From positions 27,233-91,232 of the forward strand of contig AJFK01000035.1 of assembly GCA_000467715.1 (NCBI GenBank): 64,000 bases of DNA. Direction: 5' to 3'. The translations under genes were made by a program, and so were the position numbers. Below the pieces are notes generated by a model. It saw only the letters and a list, made by a program, of their open reading frames with translations. It did no database searches and had not been told where the DNA came from. Positions within the stretch are counted from its first letter, which is position 1. Each line of letters starts with the position of its first letter. Source of the stretch: Hysterium pulicare CBS 123377. Its lineage: Eukaryota; Ascomycota; Dothideomycetes; Hysteriales; Hysteriaceae. Shown one piece after another: positions 41,704-64,000 of the stretch.

Positions 41704-43537
41704 ATGGAGAAGCGCATCGGCAAATGGAACGTCGCGCACGTTCTCGAAAAGCGCAAACTCCTCATTGCCGTAAACTGTATCGCCGCGCTCTCCATTTTCT
41801 TTTTCGGATATGATCAAGGCATGATGGGAGGCGTGAATAACGCGAAAAACTATATCGATCTTATGGGATTTGGGTACGTCGACGCAGATACTGGTGAGCC
41901 GGTGGTGACGGATAGTCTCCTCCAGGGAGGTATTGTATCTGTGTATTATCTCGGGACGCTGTTTGGATGCTTATTAGGAGGATGGGTGGGAGATAAAGTT
42001 GGACGGATTAAGACGATTGCGCTGGGGGCTGTTTGGGCTATTTTGGGTGCGAGCTTGCAGTGTTCGGCACAGAATCACAGTTGGATGATTTGTGGTATGT
42101 CTGCACCCCCGACTCATGAGAGGTATGTAGCTGAGTTTCCACAGCACGTGCCGTGAATGGAATTGGGACTGGAATACTGAACGCTATTGTGCCTGTCTGG
42201 GTACGTTGATATGGATGAGTTGATTGTGTATCGTCACTAATCATCCCGCAGGCCACAGAAACCTCCGAGCATACATCCAGAGGCCAATTTATCGCCATAG
42301 AATTCACGATGAACATCTTCGGCGTCGTGGTAGCATACTGGTTGGAATTGTGAGTCTCCCTCAACCACCCAGGAGGACTCCGATTATTCCTGGATTAGCA
42401 AGGAATTAGTTAACATCAATCAGCGGTCTCTCCTATGTCGACGGTGGTCGCTCCGCCATCCGCTGGCGCTTCCCAATCGCTTTCCAAATTATCCCTCTTC
42501 TCGTTCTCTTTGGCACCGTCTGGTTTTTCCCTGAATCACCCCGGTGGCTCGTAAAGGCCGGCCGGCATGAAGAAGCACGTTACATCCTCGGCCGGTTACG
42601 TGGCGAAACAGGATCAGACGAAGGAAAAGCAGATGCTGAATTCCAAGACATCAAGCACGTAGTCGAGCTCGAGACTTCCACGTCGAAAAAGAATTCTTAC
42701 TTCCACATGCTCTTCGGTATCGGCTCCGGGAAATTGCATACGGGGAGGAGGGTGCAGTTGGTCATTTGGCTACAGATTATGCAGGAATGGGTAGGTATAG
42801 CCGGTGTAACGATATATGCGCCTACAATCTTCAGAATAGCAGGCTTCGACTCAAAGAAATCGCAATGGATTTCCGGGCTCAACAACATCTTCTACATGTT
42901 TAGCACTCTCATTTGCGTATTCACCCTCGACCGCATCGGCCGTCGTTGGACGCTGTACTGGGGCTCTGTAGGCCAGGGCATAGCCATGTTCCTCGCAGGT
43001 GGCTTTTCGCGTCTAGGCCTCAATGCTCGCGCCGCAGGAAACATTTCCCAAGCTTCAAGCTACGGAAACGCTGCCGCCTCCTTCGTCTATATCTTCACGT
43101 TCGTATTCGGGGCAACCTGGCTTACCGTCCCCTGGCTTTACCCAGCAGAGATCTTCCCGCTGGAAGTCCGAGCCAAGGGAAACGCATGGGGCGTTGTAGG
43201 TTGGTCCATCGGTAACGGTTGGCTGACTCTCCTGTGTCCCGTCATGTTCAGCGCGATCGGCGAGAAGACGCTTTATATTTTCGGCGTGGCAAACGTGATC
43301 ACACTACCGATGGTCTGGGCACTTTACCCCGAGAGTAACCAGCGGACATTGGAGGAAATGGATTTGCTGTTTGCGGCTGATACACCCTGGGTTTGGGATG
43401 CGGAGAAGAATTTTGAGATTCTCAAGGAACAGAATCCGGAGTTGGTTGCGACGGCTAGAAGAGGAAGTAGTGTTGTGAGGGAAGGGGGCATTGGAAGGGT
43501 GGCGAGTTTGGAGAAAGATGATAGGGTGCAGGTGTAA
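41704..43537 (+). CDS. MFS sugar transporter
   Basis: 552 aa, 12 helices, exons 41704-42094, 42145-42200, 42252-42349 and 42424-43537. Sugar-porter motifs: FFFGYDQGMMGG (helix 1), GGWVGDKVGRIKTI (D-x-x-G-R), ARAVNGIGTGILNAIVPVW with ATETSEHTSRGQF, FPESPRWLVKAGRHEEA (P-E-S-P-R-W-L), and DRIGRRWTLYWGS after helix 8. The C-terminal PESNQRTLEEMD is the PETK-like motif. It takes up hexoses or related sugars at the plasma membrane; the exact substrate is not visible. Introns are 46-75 nt and canonical. Confidence 0.94.
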
Positions 43538-43639: not shown

Positions 43640-44332
43640 AGACCATCGCGAACCACCAGTGCGAAAGGTGAGTGACCAAGGTCCATCAGTGATCCTCATC
43701 GGAGTTACACATAAACTTTCTAAGACACCAGTGTACGTTGAAGCGCTGACTTCCCCTATCCCAATCTTAATGCTAACAAGTTCAGACCCTACATCATCGC
43801 CACCGAAGCCGCCATTCCCCGTATCAAAGAAAAGACAGACTTCCTAGCCTTGGCTAACTCTCTCAAGCCATTTTCGTGTCATTCTTCATACTTCCATGTA
43901 TCCTCAATGCTAGCGCATACTGGTTGGTTCGGGAGGCCTTTCGAAGAGACCAACTGGCTATTGGTTTTCGGAGCTCCACTGCGGAAGTTTAAGAAGGCGA
44001 AGTTGGTTACAGTTGAGGTCCTCTATTCCGATAGGCTGTGTCAGACGATGGAGAGGAGGGGATTACGCTTACTGTCAATTCAGCTTCAGGATGAGATTAT
44101 CTGTGACCGTTCTGGTGTCTTTTTCCGCGTGGAGACGTTACTCCGAGCTTCTTCCTGTGGCACCGTGGTACGATCACAGCCACTGTCATCCACGAAACTG
44201 ACCGGAATCGTGCAACCCTTACTCGTCTGTAAGGGCCTCAACATTCCTCATCTTAGAATGAAAAGCCCCGAAAGCACGATCCCGCAGCGAACTCAAACCC
44301 CTACCTTTGCATCAAAACTTTTCCACCAGTGA
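43640..44332 (+). pseudogene. Possible gene relic with one well-formed intron
   Basis: A frame from about 43659 (VILIGVTHKLSKTPV) joins across intron 43733-43785 to a frame beginning PYIIATEAAIPRIKEKTDFL and running to TGA at 44332. The intron has GTACGT, a perfect TGCTAAC branch site and TTCAG, which argues for past or present splicing. The first 90 residues of exon 2 (SSMLAHTGWFGRPFEETNWLL) look protein-like; the last 100 do not. No in-frame ATG is found before a stop upstream, so a start codon is missing or lies in another exon. It overlaps the start of the next gene by one base. I do not recognise the family. Confidence 0.3.
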
Positions 44333-45618
44333 TGGCAATTTCTGGCACATATTGTCTCAATCATATCTCGAAAAAGAAGACCACAGTTGGCATTTATTTC
44401 ATTATACTCATTCTCCTTCTTACTTTCAGTGCCCTGAATATTCCCTACGGATCCGTGCCATGGAGCGAAATCTCTACGATGCCTCAAACCAGCTATCAGG
44501 GTGATCACTTCAAAGCAGTGGCGGTTACTTGCAGCTTCCCAGCCAGCGGCCAATATGGACTCACCCCAAAGTTCACTTACTATGTCCTGTTAGCTGCTAC
44601 AGTCATATTCAGAAGACAAGTCTGGCTAGCTGCGGGTATCGCAGCTTCTGCGATGACGTATGCTGGTACTGCCGCTATCCACTTAATTGTCCTGTTCGCG
44701 ATAAATAACCGCATCCGTCCTGATTCAAAGCATTCACATTGCGATGATTTAGATTTTGGTTATAACATGACGTTTCCGATCTGTGCTGGGGTATATGATC
44801 CAGACTACGGCCAAGCATTTGCAATCGTGAGCGCCGGACTGCTAGCCGCGCTGCCTATGGCAGTTTGGTCAAGAACATTCGAAACAGCTACAGCTCGCCC
44901 GATCCTAGTAATATGGACTCTATTACTGGCCTTCAGTCATATATTTTACAACTTCATCGTGTCGAACCTTATATCAAACCGCCATCACCATTACCAAATA
45001 TGCGCGAACGGTGCGAGCGAAGCTCTACCGGGCAGTGCCTACGTCCCTGCCGCCATCGATGGCGCCTGGAGGAGTTCCTTGAAGCAGATCGTTTCAGGTA
45101 CTGCGGGTGGCGCACAAGAACTATGCATATATTCATGTTTTGCCTCCGACGACTATATTGGCCGAACTTCGCAAGACATCGGTGTCTATGACCCATCTGT
45201 ATACGAGCTTACAGATAATCGCTCCCGCACTTTGGAGATCACGTTTTGGATTGCTTATATACTGCTCGCTGTTGGCGCTATAGCTACCAGGAAGTGGAAA
45301 GGTGCTGGCAGTGAACCAAGGTGGTATGGATACTCCCGATGGATCATTCAGGTCATTGCCGTGTGCGCATATATTGGGTCTGTTATCTTTATCAGCGTAC
45401 AGAGCCACGGTGGCCCCGTGTCTGAAGGACTTGCTTCGGTCGGTCAGTGGAGTACAATTGCTGTAGTCGGACTTGTATTCATTGCTGCTATAATTGGCAG
45501 GGTAACGGAGAGGTGGACACCGGATGCACTTGCAGTTGAGGTAAGGAGAGAGGCGAATAAAGCAACTGTAGCAATTGAAGAAACGGATTGGAGCTGTGAA
45601 TATGGATACGCATCTTAG
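44332..45618 (+). CDS. Polytopic membrane protein, unknown function
   Basis: 428 aa, intronless. About seven or eight hydrophobic segments are seen, among them GIYFIILILLLTFSAL, AAGIAASAMTYAGTAAIHLIVLFAI, AIVSAGLLAALPMAVW, ILVIWTLLLAFSHIFYNFIV, TFWIAYILLAVGAIA, WIIQVIAVCAYIGSVIFIS and WSTIAVVGLVFIAAIIG. A large loop after the fourth has spaced cysteines (YQICANG, ELCIYSC), suggesting an extracellular disulfide-bonded loop. The first ATG at 44332 is used; a GTG precedes it in frame. I do not recognise a family. Confidence 0.7.
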   Translation: MAISGTYCLNHISKKKTTVGIYFIILILLLTFSALNIPYGSVPWSEISTMPQTSYQGDHFKAVAVTCSFPASGQYGLTPKFTYYVLLAATVIFRRQVWLAAGIAASAMTYAGTAAIHLIVLFAINNRIRPDSKHSHCDDLDFGYNMTFPICAGVYDPDYGQAFAIVSAGLLAALPMAVWSRTFETATARPILVIWTLLLAFSHIFYNFIVSNLISNRHHHYQICANGASEALPGSAYVPAAIDGAWRSSLKQIVSGTAGGAQELCIYSCFASDDYIGRTSQDIGVYDPSVYELTDNRSRTLEITFWIAYILLAVGAIATRKWKGAGSEPRWYGYSRWIIQVIAVCAYIGSVIFISVQSHGGPVSEGLASVGQWSTIAVVGLVFIAAIIGRVTERWTPDALAVEVRREANKATVAIEETDWSCEYGYAS

Positions 45619-46540
45619 ATTGATAGGGTTCTTCACTTTCCTAACCGGTCGCTCACAAATCATCAGTCCCTGTAGGTCTCCTCTCGGGATTGTGAATAGT
45701 ATGTACTGTAAAAATCCTTCTGTTGTTCTATTTGTGACGGTCGCATATGTAAGTTGGATATTGTAGGAAAGCATGGTATACCTTCTCGACGTTGGCTCTA
45801 GAGGCCATAAATTCTATCTTAGAGAAAGCCGTTGTGGTGATCTATGAAGCCGTGGGGGTTAACAGTACTAAGCTGGTTTAGCACGATCTACTAGCCACTC
45901 GAGACTAGTAAAGCGGCTGTTTCCGCCTTCGCTTCCGCGTTCCCTCCCGTGCGTCAGGGGCTCACGCTAAGGCTCGTGGCTACCTGAAACTTAAACTTCA
46001 TCTCCAGCACCACGCAACCTTGGCTGTATCTCGATTCCTCTCGCCGTGCCCTAGCTGCATGTCGGCACGTCTTTCTCATGTATATGCGTGAAGGAGACGC
46101 ATTCACCTCACACCACTCCTCCATAAACAGTACAGCAGTCGACTCACATACATCACTAGTCTCAACGAAACCAATAGTAGCATGTTGGTATGATGGCAAC
46201 ACGGTGGTGATCCTTCACCGCTGGTCTCTTTGAAGTTCTCGAAGCTGGACATCGCGATCCAGACCCTCGCGTATCAAGAGTCCAGATCGCTACATCAACT
46301 CATTGTGGCTGAAGGAGCGACAAAAGTGAGCGAAATGAGGAAGTAAGACTGATTGACCACAGCAGATCAAAAAATGAGACCGAAAGCCGAACAGTAGACA
46401 GGAAAAAATTGAGATATAAAAGGTAGTACTCGCCACGCACCTTTTCCTTCCTCATCAAAAAATCGACCAACTCCCAACTTCTCACATCATTGCATACCGC
46501 CAGATTACCAGAGCATCTCGTCACTTTCAAGTTTCTCGTC
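45619..46540. other. Intergenic region upstream of beta-rich protein gene
   Basis: 922 bp, short frames only. It contains the TATA box at 46415-46421. Confidence 0.5.
46415..46421 (+). promoter_or_regulatory. TATA box of the gene at 46541
   Basis: TATAAAA lies about 120 bp before the start codon and is followed by a CT-rich leader, a good core-promoter layout. Confidence 0.6.
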
Positions 46541-47306
46541 ATGTCCAACACGTATAGGATCGTCATCAGAAACAACTCTGGTAATACCCAAAAGTATGCT
46601 CTGATCACCGGTCGACCCGAGGTGACGGGGGACGTCCAGGGCGGAGTTTGGTCCAACGTCTTCGCGACAAATCAGACCCCTTCCGGTGGTGTCGCTGAAT
46701 TCACTGTGGAAAAGCGATACTACGCTCTTTGTGGTACTTCGAGTGGCCCCCCACGCTCCGGGGCCACTGTGTCTATTGGTGGATTAAAGGACGTGAAACT
46801 GGGGCAAATGCAGGGCGGCGGAAACCTTTCAAAAGGCACGACCATCAGCTACACTGCCAATCCCGGCGGGCAAGGTCCATTTTTTGAGTCAGGTTCTCTT
46901 CCCGATGGTGGTTCTCAGAGCGCATTCCAGATCAAAACCTCCGGCAGTTTTACAGCGAGCGATGCCGAAAACGGTGCGTGTGAAATTCTCCAACTGCTAT
47001 ACGGTTCTTAAACTTCTAAACTGACTCTTTTGCGACGACGCAGGCAACTGGTTGATCGGTGTCAGTGGTTCAGTCAACGGGAGACCTAGTCCTGCTGCCG
47101 TGTTCAAGCCAAGGCCCAACTCCCAGTTCCAGATTAGGCCCACCAACAAATTCTACGTCGCTTATGGAGATTATGCCGCTGGCGTTCTCGCCGATATGGG
47201 GATGATTGGTTATATGTCAAGGGAGGTCGACTTCTCGAGACCTGATGCCACACCTACTATGACAGTAGAGCATACCAGGGACGGTCAACTAATCATCCAG
47301 CGCTAG
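46541..47306 (+). CDS. Soluble beta-rich protein of unknown family
   Basis: 231 aa, exons 46541-46973 and 47044-47306. No signal peptide or membrane segment. Short alternating hydrophobic stretches (YRIVIRNNSGNTQKYAL, VWSNVFATNQTPSGGVAEF, RYYALCGTSSG) and many Gly, Ser and Thr suggest a beta-sandwich. The second half (NWLIGVSGSVNGRPSPAAVF, FYVAYGDYAAGVLADMG) mirrors this style and may be a second domain. The pattern resembles small cytosolic proteins seen in many ascomycetes that are annotated only as hypothetical; a lectin-like role is possible but unproven. A TATA box lies at -126. It sits next to the polyketide cluster but its 3' end faces it. Confidence 0.75.
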
Positions 47307-48048
47307 TTGGATAGATGAGGAAGGAGATGTAGACGTCTTGAGGGGCACATTGTTGGAGGTATATTCTGGTCTAGTTTAGAAATCGATCAGTAAACATTTC
47401 CTTTGAATGATACGCACGGGCAGGGGATTATGTCAAACCTGCCAAACCAAACTTGCAACAGTGGGTCATGAATGCACCAGTTTGGGCCAATTTAACTTGA
47501 TAACGTACCAATACATCTTTTAAGATGATCTTGGTGGTGATATGGCGTTTCAGTGGTTGGTGAGGTGGTTTAGAACGTGAAACAAAAAAGCTCAAGATAG
47601 AAAGACAAACATTTAACAATTGGTATTCGCTGGTGGTCATCCATGCAACTGCTAATCAACCGCTGGCTTTCAAAGGTAGAAGTCACGATGCGCAGGTGTC
47701 AGGGTTAGGGAATCGTTGCTCTGATGTTCCATCCTGCACAGCCACCTTTCTCACCTTTGTTCATGCAAAGGACCCCTAGTGAAACAGTTCAAAGACCTGT
47801 GGACCCAACCTACAAACGAGCAAAGACGTTCACCAATTGGAACAAGCGTCGAAATATATTTGCTGCTGGTCGCATTATCGACGGCATTCCTTGCATATCT
47901 TACGGATCTGATCTCGCTCCTCGTTCTCTTGCGAAACTCGGCCAAGACTCTAGTCTTCGATGGGCTTATTCCTTCTCGATTCCATCCAACTCATCTACCT
48001 ACATATATTTTGCTGAACTCTTCTGATATAAGACCATATCTTCAAAAT
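47307..48048. other. Convergent 3' intergenic region, left edge of PKS cluster
   Basis: 742 bp between the 3' ends of the beta-rich protein gene (+) and the PKS gene (-). Two overlapping frames of about 100 codons at 47,724-48,078 have no motifs. Confidence 0.5.
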
Positions 48049-51000
48049 CTAACTGCCAGTCTTCGAAAAACTCACTAATTTACTCGTCCTCGCCACTTCC
48101 CCTGCCAACTCCGCAATGGTACTATTCCCTAAGATCTTAAAGACCGGCACGTCCGCACCCGTACTCTTACTAAACCAATTTCGTAGCTCCACCGCCACCA
48201 AAGAATCCACCCCATACGCGTGCACCGGCTTGCCCGTATCAATATCGTCTTGTCCCACCGCCAGCAGATCTGCAACATGCGCCCTTACGGCCTCGCAAAC
48301 AATATCCTCAGCCTCGGTCAAAGATTTCGCTTCACTGAGCCGCATCTCGCACGTTTTGGTGTTGTTGGCGCCTGTAGAAGCCGCGTGGTCGTCCGGGTGA
48401 ATTGCGTGTAGGGTCTTGAACAGCGGTTTGGCCATCCATTGGGGCTCCACGATGCCTTTGGACTTCAATTCTGCGGGGATTCCGAGCGTGGTGACGACCT
48501 GGGCTTTTAGTGGTGACTGGACAGGTAGGCTTGGGTCGCAGTAGTACTCGAGAAGCGCGAGCAAGTCCTGCTCACTGAAGTCCTCGATGCCGTTCCTTCG
48601 CGCTAAAACTTTTACATCCATTCTATTCGCTACGTAACCAACGGATGTCACGCTGCCGAGATCGATTGAGACTGCTTTTTCCCCGTGGCGCACGCGGTGG
48701 CGAGCAAGTTCGTCCTGGTAGGTATTCCCGGATGCATAGTTGGACTGCCCGTGGGCGCCTAGGAGGCCGGATTGCGAGGCTAGGAGGATGAAGAAGTCCA
48801 TACCCTTGGGCAATAGGGTATGGAGGTTCCAAGAGCCATCTACCTTTGGTCTAATGGCGGCACTCCAGTCGTCGACCGTCATGTTATTTAATGCCACGTT
48901 CTGGAGAGTATTAGCATTGATCATTCAGTCAACGACAGACTGCGACTTACCCGCAGCACCATAGCTGCCTGGATACAGCCCTTTATGGGTGACATTGTGC
49001 TCTCAATGTCATTTACGACAGATTGTAGCTGCCTGGCGTTGCTAATATCGCAGGACATTGTGGCTACATTCGCTCCACTTGCCCGGACATCCGTCAGAAA
49101 CGGTTCCAAATGACCGGAGCTGGCCTTGGAGCGAGAAAGCAACACGATATACCGAGCACCCCGTTGAACCATCCAGCGGCAGATACTTTGAGCGATGCCA
49201 CCAAGACCACCGGCGATCACATAGGTGGAGTGTGGATCAAAGAGCTGAAGAGACCTCCGCGACTTCTCTACTTGGACCAGGTCGTCGTCGGAAAACTCAA
49301 TCACAATCTTCCCAAGATGTTTTCCCTTTTGCATCATCCGAAAGGTTTGCTGAATCTCGCTGCCTTTGAAGACGTGTAGTGGCTTTGGGGGTGTGATTGT
49401 TTTGTCGACGGCGAGTCTCATCACTGAGCTTAGGATAGTGCTAATTCGATCACCCTTCTCATACAGTTGTGGCAGATCGACACTCGCGAACATAACATTT
49501 TTGGAAAACGGAAACATGGGCAGCCCGCCAAGTGCAGAGATACCGGTCGAGTAGATGTCTTTTTTCCCTAACTCGATGAAGCGACCGAATGGAGCAAGGC
49601 ACTCCCAGGACTTCCGCAACGCCTCGCCAGCGAGAGAATTGAGAATGATATTGACACCACGATTCTCTGTCAGCCTCTTGATCCCTTTTGCGAAGTCCAA
49701 GTTTCGGCTGGAAAAGATATGGCTTTTGGGAATTCCATATGTATTAACGAGCATCTCTACTTTCTCTTCAGTAGATACGGTGGCATAGATTTCACATCCT
49801 AGGTATTTGCATAGCTGGATGCTCGCTTGACCGAATCCGCCAGCGCCGGAGTGAATCAGCACAGATTCGCCTGGTTTCGCCTGCGCCCAACTAATGAGGC
49901 TGTAATATGCGGTACAGAAGACGAGTGGCAGAGCAGCACCTGTTGAAAATGGCATGCCCGACGGTAATTTATGCATCTGATACGCCATACATCGAACCGT
50001 TGTTTTCATTGTTCCCGTATGCACGCCTAAAATGTTGTCTCCAACTCTGAAATCATGGGTAGGGTTGCTTCCCACTTGGATTACGACACCTGCAAGCTCG
50101 TTTCCGAAATAGTCGTCGTTGATTTGCCCAAGGGCAGTTAAAACGTCTCTGAAGTTTAGTCCCACCGCTTTGACCTGGATCTCTACCTCTTCTGATGCGA
50201 GCGGTTTCGGCATGGCAATATCCTCCGTATACGCTAGAGTATCGAGGAGCCCAACAGTGCCGATTCCGAGTTTAACGGGTCGCATGAGCCCTCCGTATCT
50301 CTTCCGTAAAGCTGTCGTGCGTGATTCCGGGGCGGGGAAGGTATCGGCAATCAGGTTATTAGCTTCTACCAGGCGGCTGATACAAAGTACTCCGTCCTTT
50401 TCAGTATACTCGTTCTCATACGTTGGCGAAGTTCTTGGCAGATCGCTGCGTAGGATTGTCCAGATGTGGTTCGCAACTCTCTCGCAATGGTACGGAATCT
50501 CGATGGTGACAGTGACGAAGCTAAAATCCAAATTCTCGGATTCAACTGTCCGTGCTAGACCCGCAACAATACCATACTCAGGGCTCATGAAATCCGAACG
50601 CTGTCCACCGACCCAAAGGAGCCGATTGGCCTTTGAACAGATTCTCTGAAGGAGTGCGAGTTCGCCGCGGTTCATGGTTCGCAGGAACGGCCGGTCCAGA
50701 GCCGGTAGAAATATGCAAGTCGAGTTTGTGAAGTCTACATCTTGAGAGGCTTCGATATCTACACAGCTCAGTTTTATATCGCTATGAGGCGTCAAGTGCT
50801 GTCGGATATGCTGGTATATCTCAAGCTGAGAGTGTGAGGACTGCTCGCACACGACAGTAATATCTGACATCATTCCGGCATGGATATGGGCAGGAAGCGC
50901 TGTCGACATCATTACGGCAACTTTGGGATTCTCTTCATCTTCTTCAGCATCCCCTCTGAGAACCATATCGGCACCTGAAAATTCAGTTTTCGATAGAAGG

Positions 51001-54000
51001 TCGTGCCATTCGGTTTGCGATATGAGAGGACTCCATTCGCGATTCGACTCGGTACCTTAAGAACATCATTAAAGCGCAATCACTAAGTTGATTCTTGTAC
51101 TTACATAACCACCATCCAGGGAGAAGGCCGAAAAGAAAACCCAATTTCGTGGCCTTGGGGTTCGTACTCTCGTGTAAAATAAGCTTACCGCCCCTAGATC
51201 GAAAGGTCAACTGGGTATCAAAGTCCGAAAGCGTGGGACGTACGGTTTGAGCAGTCTTCTGCAGTTTTTCAGAGTCTCTTCGAGATTCGGAGTAGCGTGT
51301 AGTACCTTTGACTGTAAGTCAGATAGAAATATCTCAACTGCCGAGAACTTACGTTAGACGCAACCACAACATCGAAACTGCTGACATCGAAACTTTGGTC
51401 TGCCGGATCTTTGGAAATGTCCAATGTCTTATAGGTTATCCGCGGGTTATTAAACCGTTCCCTTGCGCGCACGAAAAACCCAGGAGAGATATCCGTGTAG
51501 ACATATTCAGCGAATCGAGACGTTCCACTCTCGCCTTGCGCATGGCGGTTAAGGCTGTCGAGAAGGGATGTGGTGAGCCCGCCTGTGCCCGCCCCAACCT
51601 CAAGTATCCGTATAGAAGGGTTTTTGAACGCCATTGAGTCGACGTAGTTACACAGTCTTGGAAGCAAATCAGCTGGCCACTGTCCATGTTGGTAGAATTT
51701 CTCCAAGAGGTCATCCGAGAAGAGAAATTCTAAGGGGTCAAGTTTACCTTCCATAATCCTTAAAAGATTCTCAGCGATCTTGACGAGGAGGCGACCTTCT
51801 ACATCGAACTCTTTTACAGCCTGATAGATCTCGAGTGTCTGCGAAATAGGGAATTTGTTTACAGATTCATCCCACGAAACACCTGCAGTGCCCATGGTGA
51901 CTTGGCGTCGCATCCAGTCCAGATATTTTCGCAAGTGAGGACTAGGGGCAGAGTAAACCTTGGAGATACCATGAAGCGCATTCATGATAGCCGTGCGACA
52001 TACCCATTCTTTCTCTTTGTCCATATTGTGTATAATAACCCCATTGATTACGGAAGGATGAGACTTAGATATTAGGGCGGATAATGGGTCTTTGAGTAAT
52101 GTAAAGTCTGGTCGCCAGTCAAGATTGTAGAATCGACGGCATGTATTTCCTTTCTCTTGTGCTTCCGGACAACCGGTGGCTATAACAGTCATAACTACTT
52201 CCGCTACCATGCATATTTGGTCGCCATTTGCACTTGCAGCTACCACGGATCCCTTCATCTCGCGTAGGCCATTGAAAGCCGATATCGCATGAGCTTTTGC
52301 CTGCGAGGATTGAGTTCCTTGAGTCACGCCTTCTGAGATCCAAAGGTTCGTCAGGCGCGTAGGTACCATTGTCGGTACTTGTTCTCCTCCAGGTCCAAGT
52401 AGAGCGGGCAGGGCGAGCTGTAATATGGCATCTAAAGCACTTGGATGTACTAGATGAGGTTGGCAGGGTGTGTCTGGATCATGCGATCTCCAATGCTGCA
52501 TGTCTATGATTCCTACAGCTTCCCCTCTGCCGTTGGCTTTGATGTTCCCGAGTCCCTGGTATGTAAGACCATAGTCCAGCCCAGAGCTCCTAAGAATTTG
52601 ATATATGTCAGACTTCTCCATCGTAATCTGGCAATGGGACCATCCGGACTGAAGACGGTCATAATATGACGCTAGTTCTTCCTTCCGTTCGTCGATTCCC
52701 GAGGGACTCCACGTCGTGTCCGCATATTCTAAAGTAATAGCTCCCCTGCAGCATTCACGCCAATTTCCATTCTCATGGACGCAGATTCGGAACTCATTCC
52801 AGGAAGAGAGTGCTTTGCGAGTCGTGTCTTGAGATGGCCGAAGGACAAGTTGGGTTTCTACACCTTGAGGGTCCGAAGTTAGCACTAATGCATTTTGGAA
52901 GGTCACATCCCTAAACCGGTATCCTGTCACTTTGCTTTCGCCTCCTAGAAATTGACGCGTAGCCTCCAGTGCCATGACCATCATTCCCGCAGCTGGATAT
53001 ACATCCAGTCCATTGACCTAATCATGATGAGCAAAGAAAAATCGCAGACAGGACTTAGAGCAACCTACCTTGTGGTGTCTCAGGAATGGCATGTTCTTCA
53101 AAATGAGGCGGTTGTTCCATCGTGCTTCGAGTTCATTCCAATCCATAACCGGAGTACCTAGCAGCTCGTGGTGGGGAAATTTGCGAAATCTGTAGTTCTT
53201 GCTAATTCGACTCTCCAGCCAGTAGCTCTGGGGGCGATTGAATGGGTATGGCGGAAGGTTGGTTAGCATTTTTGGCTTTCTTAACAGGCCGGGATTTCTG
53301 TTTACTGCGGCCAAATCTACTTCATAGCCTCTACAGTGCAATCTACCCACACATTCGAGAATGGAATGATGTGCTGGTTGGTTCCGCACAAGAGCAGAAG
53401 AGTAGCAGGTGTGGATATCCCCACCAAAATCTTTCAGAATATCCCGAATGGGTGATTTCAAGGCCGAATGTGGCCCAATCTCAAGCATGTAGTCTGCTGC
53501 AAGGCTCTGCGTAGACTTGCCCAGCTTTCTTCGCCGAGGAGTACACACGTGGCGCATGGCGTCATTGAACTGTACTGGTGCCACCAAATTCGCAACCCAA
53601 TAATCAGCGGTAAGAAGCTCGTGAGGCGCCGATTGCTGACCCGTAACGGTTGAAATAAGCGGCCGCATGGGACGCTCTTCCCCAGCGGATATGTCGTGGA
53701 TGAATTTTTCATAAATCACCGCAGCTCCAGCCATATGGGATGAATGATAGGCTACATCTACATTGAGCCTGCGAAATGGAACGCCATCTTTTTGAAGTGA
53801 AGAAGAAAGGAAGTTCAGGGCGTCCAGAGATCCGGAAACTGTTACGTTAGAAGGGCTATTGTAGCAAGCCACTGTAATCGAATCTCCCTCTGAATGTGAA
53901 GCATGCCATATAGATGTATAAACCGAGAGTCGATTCGGCGACAGTTGAACAGCCATCATGGACCCTGAACGTGGACTCAGGAGGTTGGCCAACGAAATTG

Positions 54001-56456
54001 CGAACCCGCGGTAATATGAGATCTTCCATGCGGCCTCACGGGATATAGCACCAGAGCAATAAGCAGCTGCAATCTCACCAGAAGAATGGCCCACACTCAC
54101 GGCTGGTGTAATACTCCAAGTGGTAAGGAGGTCAGCCAGTGCAATTTGAATAGCCGTGCACATAGGTTGACTGTGCTCCGGATCATCGAAATAGGAATCA
54201 GCTGCGTCCGTTTCGTACAGCTTCTCTAAGGTTGATCAGCATTGATAGAAAGAAATCTGGGGTGTGTGGTAGGTACCCAATAGTGACCAACGACAGCCAA
54301 GCGAACGAAGATAGCCATCAGCCGCAACGAGACTATTTTTGAAGGACTCAATATCAAGGAGCTCCCGACCCATACCACGCCACTGTGCACCCTGTCCAGT
54401 GAACACAAAACATATGTTCAGTGACTTCTCCGCTCTCACGGGATTTGACCATACGAGCTCAGAGAGCGGCGTATCTGTAGCAGCGTCAACAGCGCACGAC
54501 CTCCAGGGAAGCTTAGTCCGTTTGTTATTGAGAGTGTAGGCAAGGTCATCGGAATATTCTGAAGAATGCTCGTGACGAACTTCCGGATATCCTCGACTGT
54601 ATGCCCTCTTGAGACGTTCGATCCCAGCTTCGTCGAATGCCGATAGAGTCAGTAGTTTGGGAAAAGGTACCAAGGCTCGTTGGGGGTTCAGATTCGTCCC
54701 ACTAAGGTCATTTAACATACCTACAGTCGACTCAGGATGCGAAGGAGTGACTTCAGTGGAGTGCAATCCATCAAGGTTGTGGGCACGAAGATAATGGTAC
54801 GCATCGTCGAGCACAGCATGCGCATTAGTACCACCAAATCCAAACGAATTTACAGAGGCTCTTCGTAAGCCTTCAGTGGGCCATACGGTAGTCTCGGTGG
54901 GAAATACCAGATTCCAGGCAGCTGCGTCTATCTGCCGGTTAATCCGATCTAGCCAGATGTTTGCTGGAATCAGGCCCCTTTCTAGTACGAGAATGGTCTT
55001 GATAAGACCCGCGATTCCGCTAGCTCCTTCTAAATGACCAATGTTAGATTTTACTGAGCCAATATACAAGGGATTCAGCGAAGATCCAGTTTGTATGAAT
55101 GCGTTTGCGATGGCTTTAGCCTCTGTAGGGTCACCAACTGGAGTACCCGTACCGTGAGCCTCAAAATATCTCGTTTTAGCCATATCAAGGCCAGCACGAT
55201 GATATGTTGACCGGATCAATAGCTCCTGTGCTCTTCCACTCGGTTGGGTAATTCCGGGCGTTCGACCATCTTGATTCGAGCCTGTTGATCGGATAACGGC
55301 TCTAATCACGTTGCCATCCTGTAGTGCTTTAGAAACACGTTTCAAGATCACAACTCCAAAACCTTCACCCCTTGAGTAACCATTAGCTCTGTAGTCAAAG
55401 CTATAGCACTTGTTGTCCGGAGACAAGAAGTTCAGGCTGTTCAAATTAGCACTGACAGAAGGGTCGAAGAAGAGGTTGCAGCCAGCAACTATGCCCTAGA
55501 GCTGTCAACTCGCCTGAAGATAGAAGTTTTTGAAGCAAAAGACCGTACCATTTCCGCGTCACCGCTGTGTAAACTCTGACAAGCCATATGTAGTGCCACG
55601 AGGCTGCTGGAGCAAGCAGTATCAATAACCATGCTCGGGCCGTGGAAATCGTAGAACCAGCTAAGTCTATTTGCAAGAATTGACTTGCTCGTTCCAATAA
55701 CTTTATATCTTCCTGGAAGCTCTGGATCGCGTGCCGTCATGGTTTCAAAGTCGTGCATGAAACATCCAATGTGGACTGATGTGTTCGAACCAGTAGCTTG
55801 GTCAAGGGGTATACCGGCTACAAATGAGTTAGCTCGGTCATCGACTCAGATTCCACCGCTTCATAGCGGTCATCCAGTCATTTTTACCATTTTCGATTGC
55901 ATGGTAGGAGGTCTCTAACAACCACCGCTGCTGTGGATCCATGCATTCTGCTTCAGCGGGGGAAATGGTAAAGAAGGGCGCATCAAAACACCCAAGTTCG
56001 TCTCTGATGAAGTGTCCACCACTTGCGTTCTCCTGGTTTCATGATTTTAGCAAAGGTATTGCCACGTATCAATGGTGGAATACGTACAAAAGAATCAGCA
56101 TTGTAGCGGTCTTTCGGCACTGAAGTCAGGGCGGATCTTTTATCGAGTAACGTCTGCCAAAAAGATTCTGGGCAGGTGGCATCTTGAGGGAATTTCAGAG
56201 CGAGTCCTATGATTGCAATAGGTTCAAAGATACGGCCATCTTTGCCCTCCTGTGTCTTGGAACTTTCTGGGGATACATATTCAATACCCGATTCTTGCTT
56301 ATCGCTATTTGTACATCTGTTCGGAACAACAGTAGAGTCAGTTTTTGCACGTGTGGTTACGTGATTTTCTTGGGTGGATCGAAGCGCCATTGTCAACTGT
56401 AGCGCGCTGTTGATGGAATCAAATGATGTTAGGCTGGGCTCTTTCCCTTTAGCCAT
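48049..56456 (-). CDS. Highly reducing type I polyketide synthase
   Basis: Ten exons: 56456-56088, 56032-55888, 55817-55549, 55495-54277, 54225-53069, 53017-51353, 51305-51244, 51193-51105, 51055-48951 and 48900-48049. They sum to 7932 nt (2643 aa) with every phase matching; introns are 47-71 nt. Domains by residue: KS about 78-505 ([33 protein letters not shown]); AT about 620-930 ([21 protein letters not shown]); DH about 1010-1290 ([16 protein letters not shown]); C-methyltransferase near 1520 ([16 protein letters not shown]); pseudo-KR; ER about 1920-2240 ([26 protein letters not shown]); KR about 2270-2460 ([25 protein letters not shown]); ACP near 2590 ([11 protein letters not shown]). 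All active-site residues are seen. No thioesterase or reductase domain follows, so release needs a partner in trans. Predicted product: a methylated, largely reduced polyketide. Confidence 0.95.
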
Positions 56457-57472
56457 CCAAGTGTTGTCCCCATCGACATCAAAAGAAAAGGCCTGGGCAT
56501 GACCCAGTATACGCGCGCAGCCCCATAGACCCTAGATCGCTTTCAGATGTTAGTCTGAATATGGGAATCGTTATTTGACCAGCTGCAAAACACTAAAAAA
56601 TCGAAACGATCTACATACATCCATCAAGTTTCGGAGACCGAGCTGCATATGCACGTATCCACGAAGATAGATATTTGAAACATCGATATCGAGGTCTAGA
56701 GTTGGCTGCCCGCACGGTACAACAGTTCTTCCTGCTTACGCTCGCTTTCCTGCAGTCATCCATACACACCCTTGAAATTACGCAGGCTAACACACCCAGG
56801 ACCTTTATCCATATTTGCAATTGCCATCAAAGTACAATTGCAACATACGAGCATTCTACTGCCCAATAGCAGACAAGCTAATACGGTATGTGGAAATAAA
56901 TAAGCTCCGGTATGGCAAAGATTTCGGCCTTGGACCTTGTCATGTCCCCGCATAGAGGATTCAGCTTTTGATAGACATTAGCTCCCGATGTGCCGCACTA
57001 TGAATGTTTCAGGCGAGGTAAAGATACCGTAGCGCTTGCAAGGCTGCCCAGCACAAAGAGTAGAGTCAGTCCAATAGATAATTAGGTAGCCAATGGACGT
57101 TGGCTCTCGCTGCGCCGTAATATAGAAGTTTCCGATTTTCGTGCAAGGCAGGCACACTGTATCACCTGCAAGGTTTTTCAGCGCATAGGGTGAAGTCAGT
57201 CCAATAAATAAATAAGCCGGTAGACATTGGTTCCCGCTGTACCGCAATATAGCTCTTTCGCGCAAAGCGGACATCCCGAAGCACTTGCAGGTTTGCCCAG
57301 CACATGGGGTAAAAGTCAATTCAATAAATCAATAAAGTCAAGTGAAGGATAAGAAACCTGAAATTTTTCTGCTGTTTGAGCTGACCGAGTGAAGTGAGTG
57401 AAGTCAAGCAACCCGGCGGTCGCGACTAAGCGAAAATTAAATCACGTGAAAGCCCGTTATACGGAGGTGCAG
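56457..57472. other. PKS upstream region with tandem repeats
   Basis: 1.0 kb between the PKS start and the sulfotransferase 3' end, both on the minus strand. It contains the three degenerate repeats listed separately. A 114-codon frame runs through the repeats, but the units are not in the same phase in it, so it is not called. Confidence 0.6.
56973..57340. repeat. Three degenerate tandem repeats of about 125 bp
   Basis: Units begin at 56973, 57095 and 57222 (lengths about 122, 127 and 119). Each opens with (A/G)GAC(A/G)TT(A/G)G(C/T)TC(C/T)CG, carries CCG(C/T)A(A/C)TAT about 20 bp in, then C(C/T)TGCA(A/G)G, CAGC(A/G)CA and GTCA(G/A)T(C/T)CAATA(G/A)AT near its end. The first two units have a CCAAT box, altered to TCAAT in the third. 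Divergence is spread over the unit, so the duplications are old. The position about 0.5 kb upstream of the PKS start allows a regulatory role; this is inference. Confidence 0.75.
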
Positions 57473-58516
57473 CTATTTCCTTAAGGTCCAGTAACCGACT
57501 CCAACAGCAACAAGCAGCACACCCACAGTTCCTACATACTTTCGAGTGCAATGCCAAAGCCTCAGATAATAGATGAATCCATGAATCTGAACTGTCCATT
57601 TCGCGTCGTTGATCCTCGGGTACGGCTCATCCTTCGGTACCTGCTTCTCGAGGAATTCGCAAAGAGGTGCCCAACCATCTTTGGACTCGAACTCGAGTAA
57701 TCTGTTCTTGGGGACTTTGGAACGTACGTGAGCATAGTGCTCGATGTAGCTTCTGCGCAAGGCTTCACCGTTGGACATGTCGCCATCTGTCCATTTGGCC
57801 ACGATCATGCGGAGTATGGTAGAGTATGGTCCCCAGAGAATCTGTGGATGGCACGCGCGTCAGACAAGCTGTTTAAATAAAAAGGGGATCTGGGCGCCTT
57901 ACCGGGTCAATGGACGCGAGCCAAGGTAGCGTTCTCCATTCCAGAATCTTGAAGATGGACTGGTTAACAGACGTGTACCAAGAATCGATGTCGCGGTTCG
58001 TAAGGATGACTTTGGCGTTGGGATACTTCTCCAGGAGCTCGTCGATGAAAAGCAGACACGGTATGTCTTCAATTGCCTGACAGAATTCGCAGGCCAGTTA
58101 GTATGCATGATGTAAAGCAAGTGTGGTGAGATATGTACATTGTAGTTCCGAAGGACCTTGTCGATGTCATCGCCAGTCCAAAGTTTTCCTTGACCCTTCA
58201 GCTTTGCGTTCAGGGCCTCTTCCCATAGCTGGAGATGCTGCTCCTGCCAGCGAGTGACGCATTCCGACATGTGATAGACGCTGTAACCCAGCTTCTCCAA
58301 AGCTACTTTGAGTGCTAATGACGTAAGTATGAGCTCGGAAGTATATCGGTGAGTCCGAGAGACAAACACATGGTTCCTTTCGAAAGGTCAGTGGGATATA
58401 GGCAGACGCCAATGGCTGGGCGAACCTGTTCTGCTGAATCCAAGAGCCAACAGCTCCATTGGCTTTGGCCTCTCGGCTTCGGGAACCGTGTCGATGAGTC
58501 TCTTTTGGGAGACCAT
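57473..58516 (-). CDS. P-loop sulfotransferase-family protein, membrane-anchored
   Basis: 272 aa in five exons: 58516-58426, 58376-58368 (9 nt), 58314-58139, 58076-57903 and 57841-57473. Without the microexon the motif breaks; with it the N-terminus reads ALGFSRTGTMSLKVALEKL, the 5'-phosphosulfate-binding loop of the Sulfotransfer_4-like fungal family. A later KVILTNRDIDSWYTSV is the 3'-phosphate-binding region. The C-terminus ends in one hydrophobic helix (YVGTVGVLLVAVGVGYW), so the protein is probably tail-anchored. Such proteins recur in fungal metabolite clusters, where many have no proven sulfation activity. It lies between the PKS and the exporter on the same strand, so a tailoring role is likely, not shown. 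Confidence 0.88.
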
Positions 58517-58979
58517 TGTGGATTGAGTCAAGAATCAAGTCAAGTTGATACACGAAGCTTGGGGGTGGGCAAGCTGTCGAGCTTTAGAGTAGCGCGGGGT
58601 TGGCTGCGGCGCAGGGCTTGTGCTTTCAGGTGAATGTTCGAAGACAATCGTGCGTACAGGGAAGGAGCACTAAGCCCAAGAAGTGAGATGCAGGTGGTGA
58701 GATACTATGGAACTGGGCATATATTTTGTGAGCGGGTTTTGGGGAGGCGCCTAATTTCGATACTGCGCATAGATTGATCGGTGAGAAGGCCTGCATTGGT
58801 CTGTGGTTTAATACCCTGCTGCTGACACGCCCGCGGGCCGCACGATCCACCCGCAGAAGCTACCCTGGATACTATATTAGTTTGCAGGCCACGCAGGAGC
58901 AAAGACGTCTGACGCCATCTCACGGCTGAGTCACGTAGGTATTGCTATTAATCTATGTACGGGGGCCGGTATGTAAGGA
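58517..58979. other. Intergenic, sulfotransferase promoter and MFS terminator
   Basis: 463 bp. A GC-rich patch includes the perfect 10-bp palindrome GCCCGCGGGC at 58829-58838, about 313 bp upstream of the sulfotransferase start. No gene. Confidence 0.5.
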
Positions 58980-60996
58980 CTACCGTTGGAACCGGGGTCG
59001 TCGCTCAATCATCAAAAGCGTCACCAAAAGTCCGGCGCTGCTCAAGCCCAGGATCGCTTGCATCTGTTGCGTGAAGCTAGCCGCAAAGGCCTCCCGCACT
59101 TCCTCCCGCACTGCAGGCGGGAGAAGCGCCACCGTTTGTGCTGAACCTAGTAGGGCTTTCATTTGACTTGGTGATAGGATTCCTGCAAGCCTCTCGGTGA
59201 TGCGGTTGTTTAGGATGTTTGCGCAGATGGAGACTCCGATACTTCCACCGAGAACCCGGAATTGGTTGCTTGCTCCCATCCCGACGGCTTTTATTCGTTA
59301 GCAGCTGGAGACAGAGCAGAGAATTCGGACGTTAGATGACTGACCTAGATTTTGTTCCGAGAAGGCGAGCGGCGCAGTCATGACCACGGTGGCTAAGTTT
59401 ATGCCAAAACCAAAGCCCATTATTACCTGGAAACCATATTGCGATTTCGGAAAGCCGGGACCGGATCGCTGAATTGAGGACGCAAGACCGGTCCCCAGCA
59501 TTATGAAAGACGACCCGGCCAGAAGTATGTATAAAGGCGGAACTTTTAATTTCTGCGAAGAAAACCCGGCAAGAGCGGAACCCACGGGCACTATGAGGGT
59601 AAGTGCTAGTAGGCGGTAACCAGCTCTCGAGGGTGAGTCGCCATATACGACTTGAAACTGCTGAGGGAGGACGATGATGCAGGTTATGAACGCTAAACCG
59701 CTAAAGAGACAAACTAGCAAGAGCCCCATGGCATACCTATCAGTCAACACAGGCCATGGGAGGATTGATTCTTGCTCTGTGACTCTGCTTGCTTGGTATC
59801 GAGACCAAAGGACAGTGCCTACCATCAATACGACGGATACGATTAGTAAACTGAGCACAAGTGCGCTCTTCCAAGAGAACTGGGTTCCACCTTCTTCGAT
59901 TGCGGTGACAAGTAAAAGGGTTGAAGAAAGCAGGAAAAATCCACCGACGAAGTCCACTCTCCGTAGCTTCGAGCCCAGTGGAAGTTTTGAAGATGTATCA
60001 TGATCACGCGAGTGGGGGAAGTGGGCCGGTAGTGTGAGGTAGAAGAGAACTAAAGCAGCAAATCCGACAGGAGCACTAAAGTCGCGATGAAGATTAGCAG
60101 AGGTCGGCAGGAAGGGCGTTGAGTTCGTCTCACTTGAACAGGAAAATCCATTTCCAAGATCCGTGGTCCGAAATCACCCCTCCAAAGATAGGCCCAAGCA
60201 AGCTCGACATGGCGGCGACTGCAGAAATGATGCCCGCATATCGAGCATACTTCGTTGGTGGCACCATCTCAGGCAGGATCACAAACGTCATTGTATAGAT
60301 ACCACCCCCTCCGATGCCTTGGAAGGCGCGAAAGATGATCCTTTACTAAATCAGCACTTCGAGATGGCCTGGCCAATATCGGTACCATCTAGTGGCCTTA
60401 CAGTTGTTCAATCGAACGTGCAACGCCGCATGCAATGGAGAAAACAATGAAAATAATCAGAGAATAACTCATTAGAGTGCGTCTGCCAAAAGTATCGCTA
60501 AGTTTAGCTAATATCGTAAGAAACCCTGGAACATGTTCAGCGCGAGCGATGCAAAGCTTTCCGCTTGAATGGAAATGTACCTGTGTACGTGAGGAGATAT
60601 GCTGATATTATCCAGCTACTACTTCGAAAGCCTCCTAGATCGTTTGTTATCGCCACAAGGGCCGTGCCGACAATGGTACTCTCCAGCGTCGAAAGGAAGA
60701 GACACAAGCATAATCTGTCGCCTGTATTAGATAATCATATATTGATCCTAGGTAGTAGATGAGGTGGAGACTCACGAAAGATTCAAAAGCTGCAGTCTGG
60801 GTCCTCGGAGAGAGAGATTGGGCGTGAGAGGCTCCTCCTCTGAAACTAATAAAGTCTCCGGTAATTGATCTTGCTCGATTTTCTCAGTAGATTTGTCTTC
60901 GTTAGGAATTCGATTCGAGTGCGCGCTGGTGGAAGGCAAAGACGGTTGTGTTGAAGGTGTTGAACTGGCCATTTTGCTCTGGATATCGTGGTTCAT
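58980..60996 (-). CDS. MFS exporter (14-helix DHA2 type) with one-base frameshift
   Basis: Exons 60996-60776, 60714-60581, 60526-60402, 60340-60134, 60075-59345 and 59287-58980. The family pattern is clear: LESTIVGTALVAITNDLGG (helix 1), ILAKLSDTFGRR (motif A), FRAFQGIGGGGIYTMTF, LLGPIFGGVISDHGSWKWIFLFN and GASNQFRVLGGSIGVSI. In exon 3 the frame breaks between FGRR and LMSYSLIIFIVFSIACG: one extra base near 60480 shifts it, and read as it stands it meets a stop. Corrected length would be about 574 aa. Within a PKS cluster it would export the product or give self-resistance. Start could also be the ATG at 60972. Either the copy is decaying or the sequence has an error. Confidence 0.82.
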
Positions 60997-61644
60997 AGCA
61001 AAATAAACCTTAGAATACTTAGAGTGACGAAAGAGGAAGCATGTAGAGCGTACTGCGGCGAGAGCAGTTCTTAGGCAGATGGGGTCCAGGCATGGGTTTA
61101 ATTTGATAGGCAATATTCTTCTTCAAATGCCAAATATTTCACGATCACGGTGTCCGAAGATGACTGTGCCGCAATATATCCCTTGAGCTGTTTCTTGAAC
61201 GTTGTTGGCCGAACCTTGTTTATAAGTAGGGATCAGCCGTATATGCTGCTGTACCACCATCCCTCGGGCTCCTGGGGCGGTTACATCTGCAATCCCGTCC
61301 AATAAAGTCACATACTCAGCACCAAAACTTAGACCAGGCAATGCCTTCCTTTCGGTGTGAATGGCAGCATGCGCTGATGGCCCCTTTCGCCCTAGCCCTG
61401 TCCGCGCCGCAGGAAGAAGACAATCGCAAAGATCAACCACGCGTAAGCAGTGATTATATTTAAAACTCTTCATTTATCGTTAATTTCATTGTATATCTGC
61501 GCCGCAAGAACAGTTACTGTTCTCTGTCCAGGGGGAATTTTTAAGACTGAGTACTTATCAAAACTACTTGGCAGTAGACCACCGCGTCTGACCGCCGCAC
61601 CTTTGAACTAGAATCCTCTCACAGCTGTCACTTTTGCTGCCATC
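60997..61644. promoter_or_regulatory. Divergent promoter of MFS and rhodopsin-like genes
   Basis: 648 bp between start codons of the exporter (-) and the membrane protein (+). It holds TGTGCCGCAATATA at 61165-61178, nearly identical to an element in the tandem repeats upstream of the PKS, and three more GCCGCA words near 61409, 61501 and 61591. A 116-codon minus-strand frame (61123-61473) is not supported by motifs. Confidence 0.5.
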
Positions 61645-62878
61645 ATGGGGTTCGCCGCGGATCAGAATGATCTACTCATTACTGCGGGCATTCTCATCCC
61701 CGCAACGATGATAGTTATTGGCCTCAGGTTTTTTGCCCGACAACGCCTTCGAGCCAGAAAAGGACTCGACGACTGGTTTGCTTTGGCTGCTGGAATTGTG
61801 TTCTGGGCAAACTGTTTTGCGATGGTCTGGGGTGCGTTTTCAAGTCTCTGAACTCTTCGATGCGAGCAAGCCAACTAACGGACGTCCTGATAGGTGTTTA
61901 TAAAGGTTATGTCGGGGTGGATCCTTTGAAAATGGATCCGGCTGCACTCGTACAAGGTCTAAAGGTTTGCAATCCTGAAAAGCTCTCGCGTACAATGCTA
62001 AGAAGACTAGATGAGCTTCGCCGGTATATTTCTCATGTCTACGATTCTCACACTAGCGCGATTTAGCGTTTTATTCCTGTACTATCGCCTCTTCGGCATA
62101 TACGCCAGCTTCAGAATAGCGTTAATTGTGGTTGGAGTTGCGTCAACCTTGTGGATGCTTATCATATGGTTCCTGACCATTTTCCGCTGCAAGCCGATCA
62201 GCGCTGCTTGGAACATTTTCCTTGTTATTCAGGGACAAGCGCACTGCCTAAGTCAGGAAACTATATTCCTAATCACCGAAACGATCAATGCGATTCTAGA
62301 CATCTCCCTTGTTTGCCTTCCGATAAGCAAGCTTCGTATTCTTCAGCTCCCCCTGCGGGATAGGATAGGCCTCGGGTTCGTTTTCGTCACTGGTGCCTTG
62401 TAAGTATCTCCGTTATGTCAAGCAGATAATGGCCGCTAAACTCTGCAGCGTTGGTATCACAAGTATACTCAGAATCGTGTTTACATATAATCCATCAAAG
62501 ATAGGTATGAATAATCGCTTCGTACCTATACTGAATCTTCACTAACCGCTTCTAGGAGCCCTTCTTGATAGCATTTTCTGGCTCGACCTGCAGTTAGCCA
62601 CGGCTATTATCTGCGCATGTCTCCCAACGCTGCGATCGCTCCTCCCGACTCAAAAAACCTTTGTCCCATTATCATCGGCCATCCAGCGGCTCCTAGGTTC
62701 AATAATGACCTCTTCATCAGCAACGGTAAAATCCTCTCAGCAAAGTTCCAGCGTGCCGACATCAGATGGCTTATCCAAGTCCATATACGGGAGGTATACT
62801 AATTTAGGGAGGGATGGTGAAGATGGAATCGCTCTTACTAGTGTCAGCGTCGATACTCGATCAACAAACCAGATTTAA
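61645..62878 (+). CDS. Fungal rhodopsin-like (PTH11-type) integral membrane protein
   Basis: 341 aa, about seven helices, exons 61645-61831, 61894-61964, 62011-62399, 62449-62504 and 62556-62878. The start AGILIPATMIVIGLRFFARQR followed by KGLDDWFALAAGIVFW (L-D-D-W) and the segment LARFSVLFLYYRLF, WFLTIFRCKPISAAWN and INAILDISLVCLPI define the fungal rhodopsin-domain family (Fung_rhodopsin, related to PTH11-like receptors without the CFEM domain). A Ser/Thr-rich cytosolic tail follows. Such genes are often found in metabolite clusters with unknown role; sensing or transport are guesses. Introns include a 46-nt one with a TGCTAAG branch site. The 3' end is 81 bp from that of the FSH1 gene. Confidence 0.88.
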
Positions 62879-62959
62879 GTAGTTGCGCGACGACGGATTT
62901 GTTTGTTTACGTCTTATGAATATAAGGGCTCTCCAGTGTCAATTCAAGTATATAATATT

Positions 62960-63816
62960 CTATTGAGCAAATAACGTACGATCAATCATGTCCTCAATGA
63001 CCCTGACCATCCGTGTCGTCGATTCCACTGTTCTCGGAATTTCATGTCCGCCCTCATGATCTAGCTGGCTTCGTCCCTGTTTACGACATACCCGGCTTAG
63101 TTCCAAGCTTTGCTGATAGCCCGGGTCTTTTGAACCGTATATGTGAACAGTAGGAATTCCAATGATGTCTCCATCGAGATCCTCCTTAGCGGTTCGAGCG
63201 TTTCCATCTACCACCTGCCAAGGTGGTGATCCGCAGATGAATACAGCGCACTTAATGCTATCATAGGCAGTGTTCTCGGCCCCGGGGTATTTATGAGCGA
63301 GATATGTTGCAGTTAGAAGAGCGCCTTGCGAAAATCCTATAATGCCATCGAAAGGGCCTTCGGTACGGATGTACTCGTCGAGGTCCGCTAAGGCTGAGAA
63401 GAAACTCTCAACTTCTTCATTGAAGTAAGCATAGTAATCTTCGTCGGCAGGAAACAAGGTCATGATTTCTAGATGCTTTTAGGTTAGCGTTGCTCATCAA
63501 ATACTCATCAATTGCATATTGGCATACGGTTACCATGTGTGATACAGATGCGGAGTGACATGCTTACCAGAAGCTTGCGGGTGTTTTAGTGACCCTTCCA
63601 CAAATTCGAACTGATGGTTAGCGCCAAGTCCATAGCGAAGAGGTGCTAGAAAATTAGCACGTTACGATACTGCGATACAGTTCTGCTGGTGATGATGATG
63701 TACCGGTTTGAACTTCGAACACCTAGATTCCAGCGGTTAGAACATCAACGTCCGTGGAAACTACAATGACGTACTCTGGCGTTCGACCCCATCCCATGTA
63801 AACATAAAAACCTCAT
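62960..63816 (-). CDS. FSH1/LovG-like serine hydrolase, candidate polyketide-releasing enzyme
   Basis: 215 aa in four exons: 63816-63775, 63722-63704 (19 nt), 63645-63568 and 63468-62960. The joined N-terminus reads MRFLCLHGMGSNARVFEVQT, the FSH1 oxyanion-hole region; then GANHQFEFVEGS, LFPADEDYYAYF, the nucleophile elbow GIIGFSQGALLTATYLA, an acid candidate near VHIYGSKDPG, and the catalytic His in HEGGHEIPR. In the lovastatin pathway the FSH1-family enzyme LovG hydrolyses the thioester that ties the product to a highly reducing PKS lacking a release domain. The PKS here also lacks one, so this gene is the obvious candidate. That link is inference from family and position. Confidence 0.9.
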
Positions 63817-64000
63817 CGAGGTACTGAAGCCAAAATTGATATATGGGTGAGGGTGCTAGTAAAGCCTTTGCGCTGGCTGCTGGCGGTTCAGCAGCCTTCA
63901 GTGATCAAAATGGCGCGGATTGAGTCGAAGTTTTCTCCTCATCCGGCAAATTCTCGATTAGCGTCCAAAAACTGAGAAGAACTTTGCAAAAAAAAAAAAA
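63817..64000. other. Window end, FSH1 promoter region
   Basis: 184 bp upstream of the FSH1 gene, ending in 13 adenines (63988-64000). A 22-codon frame from the ATG near 63910 has no support. The A-run could be genomic or a contig-end artefact. Confidence 0.4.

Follow-up and report, generated by a model that had tools for sequence, protein, structure and literature searches.

A highly reducing polyketide synthase/FSH1 locus of Hysterium pulicare CBS 123377 with an embedded S. mansoni-type sulfotransferase gene

LovB, the synthase of the LovB/LovG system, possesses a condensation-like domain after its ACP, and in CurM, the curacin A protein, a sulfotransferase (ST) and a thioesterase (TE) are fused in cis to the polyketide synthase (PKS). 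In the LovB/LovG pair, a thioesterase-less highly reducing PKS (HR-PKS) that includes a methyltransferase domain is paired with a free-standing hydrolase, LovG, which is described as the product-releasing thioesterase (PMC7870829); in the case of curacin A, sulfonation makes a leaving group (PMC3908369). The fusapyrone cluster (FPY) resembles the locus described here in possessing a PKS, a hydrolase with an FSH1 domain and an MFS transporter, and differs from it in having a P450 and a dehydrogenase (PMC10512364); the words "rhodopsin" and "sulfotransferase" are absent from the main text of that paper. The same source describes FUS5, the FSH hydrolase of the fusarin cluster, as co-expressed and not essential, and FSH1 genes in PKS clusters are thus not always required. 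The sulfotransferases of PF17784 (IPR040632) are known as S. mansoni-type (PMC11625862) and include SmSULT-OR and the bacterial SgdX2, the structure paper of which, as cited in PMC11677658, speaks in its title of an "activating sulfotransferase". FgSULT1, the characterized Fusarium enzyme, is a member of PF00685, a different family (PMC7690957). For AsSULT, also fungal, a 2024 study reports surroundings that gave no sign of a known biosynthetic cluster type (PMC11677658). Among the open-access matches listed, a single paper names PF17784.

The genome assembly comprises 596 contigs (37.2 Mb). Within a window of 64,000 nucleotides (the whole stretch of DNA analyzed), taken from contig C29 at bases 27233-91232, the locus lies at 48049-63816. 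This interval runs exactly from the stop codon of the HR-PKS gene to the start codon of the FSH1 gene, and all five genes that the initial annotation had placed there are present, each as a spliced model with Pfam matches. Their arrangement is not as first described: the four partners said to follow the PKS lie upstream of it relative to its transcription, and one of them, the rhodopsin-family gene, is found on the opposite strand. The five-gene locus is real and apparently intact, apart from one doubtful splice donor. Contig C29 terminates with the window (91232 bases), in an A run 184 bases past the FSH1 start codon, and the right border of the cluster is therefore out of view.

It follows that the reported absence of a P450 and a transcription factor is valid for the left side only, where Pfam scans of 20 of the 63 open frames (minimum length 120 amino acid residues) found neither. 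A genome profile search revealed no P450 match on C29 (92 of 282 first-look candidates scored) and no Zn_clus match (150 of 207 scored). The three open frames nearest the PKS, at 43742-44329 (196 residues), 44257-45615 (453 residues) and 46427-47008 (194 residues), are without a Pfam match. Farther to the left are found a sugar transporter (41515-43534), a GDSL lipase (38778-39854), an adjoining HET-domain (heterokaryon incompatibility) frame of 651 residues (36271-38223) and, beyond the latter, a further MFS open frame. The segments 47001-48000 and 63001-64000 agree in their base counts; they have no common 20-mer in the same orientation and were rejected as a repeat.

Our preferred reading, to which we assign a probability of roughly 60%, is that of a compact, paralogous HR-PKS cluster with synthesis and hydrolytic release of the LovB/LovG type, export by the MFS protein and probable O-sulfonation.

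The HR-PKS gene (48049-56390, minus strand) possesses ten exons, which encode 2621 amino acid residues. The exons were joined by conserved motifs and GT-AG borders, giving nine introns of 47-70 nt and zero internal stops; the start Met is our choice, a further in-frame ATG being present slightly upstream. Since this model reads through, a broken PKS was rejected. The domain order is KS-AT-DH-CMeT-(structural KR)-ER-KR-ACP, with Pfam matches to ketoacyl-synt (7.6e-72), Acyl_transf_1 (3.2e-49), PS-DH (5.7e-17), ADH_zinc_N_2 for the ER (1.3e-13), KR (9.3e-62) and ACP_SdgA_C (3.3e-10); the C-methyltransferase is represented by Methyltransf_12 (1.2e-21) at residues 1503-1611, with the motif EVGAGTGG. 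The active-site motifs are present, the ER motif is intact, and KS, AT, DH, ER, KR and ACP are located on one polypeptide, which is the hallmark of a fungal HR-PKS. The ACP match stops at residue 2609 of 2621 and no domain is found after it, from which we conclude that the enzyme is without a release domain in cis; the thioesterase, terminal-reductase and condensation families are not represented among the 23 Pfam matches. The initial description of an HR-PKS with all reductive domains and a C-methyltransferase, and without a release domain, is thus borne out. The best solved relative is LovB (7cpx, 3.1e-266). The two differ in that the C29 enzyme has its ER in cis, whereas LovB is described as relying on the separate LovC, and in that no condensation-like domain is found past the ACP. 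On the strength of these domains and motifs, the PKS would iteratively build an ACP-bound chain that is reduced and C-methylated. Between the PKS and sulfotransferase genes, in the 5′ region of the former, lies a degenerate direct repeat of approximately three units of 120-130 bp (56972-57311), the copies of which are 71% alike at spacings of 249 and 130; a genome search revealed no second copy elsewhere.

The FSH1 serine hydrolase (62960-63816, minus strand; four exons, 215 residues) is the candidate trans-acting thioesterase. It matches the FSH1 family (PF03959) at 1.1e-36 and possesses the motifs of a Ser-Asp-His triad: GFSQG at 91, SKDPG at 159 and HEGGHEIP at 184. At an E value cut-off of 0.01 it has one PDB match, 1ycd (1.4e-05), which is yeast FSH1. 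Genome-wide there are nine FSH1-family matches, six of which have an HR-PKS gene within 7 kb (at C29, C198, C26, C238, C222, and C452). Since the PKS is without a release domain, its chain would be handed to the FSH1 protein, which may free it in trans, as in LovB/LovG, as a carboxylic acid or lactone. The pairing of HR-PKS and FSH1 as a release logic, put forward in the initial annotation, fits with the intact domains and motifs, with LovB as the closest solved relative and with the location of most FSH1-family matches; on the hydrolase side, the likeness to LovB/LovG is based upon the FSH1 family and the triad.

The MFS gene (58980-60996, minus strand; six exons, 574 residues; MFS_1 1.5e-43, TRI12 2.1e-14) encodes the presumed exporter of the product. 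Its neighbor (61645-62878, plus strand; five exons, 341 residues) encodes an integral membrane protein of the Fung_rhodopsin family (PF20684, 8.9e-44). Retinal-binding rhodopsins possess a lysine in the last membrane helix. The last membrane segment of the C29 protein, ALLDSIFWLDLQLATAIICACLPTLRSLL, with the helix assigned by eye, contains no lysine, and the protein is therefore not to be taken as a light receptor; "rhodopsin-like" is correct as a family name and not as a function. The most likely role is membrane sensing or transport.

Members of this family are numerous, with at least 159 matches in the genome (150 of 220 candidates scored); the 150 that were used collapse to at least 131 genes in the 37.2 Mb. 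A member is found within 7 kb at nine of the 21 HR-PKS loci (C29 included), where 1.28 are expected (Poisson P ~8e-6, an expectation that disregards possible joint gathering of Fung_rhodopsin and PKS genes in variable regions), and at one of 14 other KS loci, which served as the comparison set. Within 10 kb the count is 11 of 21, with 1.72 expected. The 21 loci are those with a PKS_DH_N match (30 of 30 candidates scored), each spanned from the KS to the DH position. At some of these the match enters the DH profile at an internal position, and all seven such loci possess a Fung_rhodopsin gene within 10 kb versus four of the other 14 (Fisher P 0.004). These part-way starts (28-38), found at C293, C541 and five of the six loci grouped with C29 below, suggest a shared intron at this site. 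C293 and C541 are themselves HR-PKS loci outside this group with a Fung_rhodopsin gene within approximately 3.4 kb. In the open-access literature on rhodopsin and HR-PKS, the phrase "rhodopsin domain-containing" is absent among the matches listed.

A KS tree of 19 sequences (unrooted; constructed without C314, C324, C336, C495, C22, C3, C7 and further PKS loci) groups C29 with C26, C198, C222, C438 and C238 at a FastTree support of 0.977, the C222 entry being 313 residues long; C29 joins C26 at 0.899 only. With C29 counted, a Fung_rhodopsin gene is located within 7 kb at all six of these loci, FSH1 at five (none being found at C438) and an MFS relative at four, such that PKS, FSH1, MFS and Fung_rhodopsin occur all together at C29, C26, C238 and C222, in varying gene order. 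This co-occurrence indicates that four of the five genes constitute a recurring module. The idea that the set is unique was accordingly rejected, and what had been called a less usual set is so by virtue of the sulfotransferase alone, since the rhodopsin-family and MFS genes recur beside sister HR-PKS genes of the same genome. The best match to the C29 Fung_rhodopsin protein elsewhere is found at C495, beside another HR-PKS (29% identical); the copies at the sister loci rank below it and were rejected as its closest kin, which counts against simple co-duplication. The positional association between Fung_rhodopsin genes and this PKS clade stands; descent as a single block is not supported. At C222 (15565-29332), two PKS genes are located within approximately 14 kb, one being the HR-PKS of the sister group and the other a divergent PKS on the other strand, whose KS matches that of the window at 38% over 322 residues.

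The sulfotransferase gene (57473-58516, minus strand; four exons, approximately 272 residues) is located between the PKS and MFS genes, at distances of 1.1 and 0.5 kb. Its product matches Sulfotransfer_4 (PF17784) over nearly the whole domain, at positions 2-213 of 215 (1.7e-67, 227.9 bits, using the GC-donor model discussed below), and has nine PDB relatives at 5.3e-28 to 1.7e-17, which include 9kf1, 5tiz, 4mua and SgdX2 (8y9p, 1.7e-17). These matches place it with SmSULT-OR and SgdX2, from which it differs in being fungal, in its hydrophobic C-terminal tail and in its location in a PKS cluster. The Asp of the sequence IEDIP, which starts at residue 94, is aligned with an Asp in the alignments to 9kf1, 5tiz and 6b53, and we take it to be the catalytic base, its role in SmSULT-OR. 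In the initial annotation the protein was called membrane-anchored. By eye, the PF17784 paralogs at C168, C556 and C361 have similar tails, so that an anchor is not particular to the C29 enzyme. The nine PF17784 matches in the genome represent six genes. Only that of C29 shares a contig with a PKS; the other five are on contigs without a KS match, although two of these (C72 and C168) are so close to a contig end (within 3 kb) that a PKS neighbor could be out of sight. No homolog was found at the sister loci by genome profile search and locus scan. The sulfotransferase is what sets C29 apart from them. Under the preferred reading it would most likely use PAPS to sulfonate a chain hydroxyl, provided that its first intron is spliced correctly, and the transferred group may be a final sulfate ester or an activated leaving group.

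This intron (58315-58425, minus strand) is situated in the PAPS-binding loop. When one intron is allowed, GFSRT kept and the acceptor CATTAG used, three joins are possible, from the donors GTTCGC at 58425, GTCTGC at 58407 and GCCATT at 58416. Their scores are -1.2, -3.1 and -3.5, versus -3.1 to 5.3 (median 3.0) for the 23 donors of the cluster. The GC donor yields the loop RTGSPT and matches the junction of the C168 paralog, whose homologous intron has a normal GT donor at the position where C29 reads GC. Of the two GT joins, that from GTTCGC yields RTA, with a single A in place of GSPT and the loop lost, while that from GTCTGC yields RTGSPSHWP, in which RTGSPS is kept and three residues are added just past the loop. 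An intron without a good donor inside the PAPS-binding loop renders the activity of the enzyme uncertain; the gene may have begun to decay recently, the assembly may contain a wrong base, or the intron may be truly though inefficiently spliced. Together with the lack of a homolog at the sister loci, this means that the sulfotransferase may be a passenger or a decaying gene, the working cluster being the four-gene HR-PKS/FSH1/MFS/Fung_rhodopsin module as found at those loci. We consider this a serious alternative, at about half the weight of the preferred reading. It is opposed by the open exons, the strength of the PF17784 match with the GC join, and the retention of the NRDIDSW motif and the aligned Asp. 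Furthermore, an intron of the cluster's own Fung_rhodopsin gene has a similarly weak donor, GTTTGC, and an assembly error would explain the sulfotransferase donor as well.

A second alternative is that sulfonation drives off-loading in trans, a split version of the CurM logic: the sulfotransferase would sulfonate the beta-hydroxyl of the final unit on the ACP and FSH1 would hydrolyze the thioester, with decarboxylation and loss of sulfate leading to a terminal alkene. The two systems are alike in that a sulfotransferase and a thioesterase-type enzyme accompany a PKS, here one without a release domain. They differ in that CurM has ST and TE fused to the PKS, whereas at C29 the genes are separate, the PKS is a fungal iterative one and the hydrolase belongs to another family. 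Moreover, FSH1 is found beside five other HR-PKS genes (C198, C26, C238, C222, and C452) without a PF17784 match, and it is thus not tied to the sulfotransferase. Although the logic is established for curacin A (PMC3908369) and SgdX2, by title an activating enzyme, is among the sequence relatives, a fungal example was not found among the open-access literature matches listed, and we regard this scenario as very improbable. Likewise very improbable is the reading that the stand-alone S. mansoni-type sulfotransferase activates the chain together with FSH1, the sulfonated hydroxyl being expelled during or after release, in which case the sulfate-free product would possess a terminal alkene or a new ring.

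The preferred reading of a LovB/LovG-type cluster with probable O-sulfonation describes a locus which is, for the most part, ordinary for its genome, the sulfotransferase being the uncommon component. No cluster matching the five-gene set was found among the open-access full-text matches listed, and the words sulfotransferase, FSH1, rhodopsin and hydrolase have zero occurrences in a lichen PKS paper. If the sulfotransferase is active, the C29 locus is a variant of the HR-PKS/FSH1 type with an embedded sulfotransferase, and if the polyketide is its substrate, the fungus would possess a polyketide cluster to which a PF17784 enzyme is dedicated. The frequent pairing of PF20684 genes with this HR-PKS group provides a handle on the function of a large family of fungal membrane proteins.
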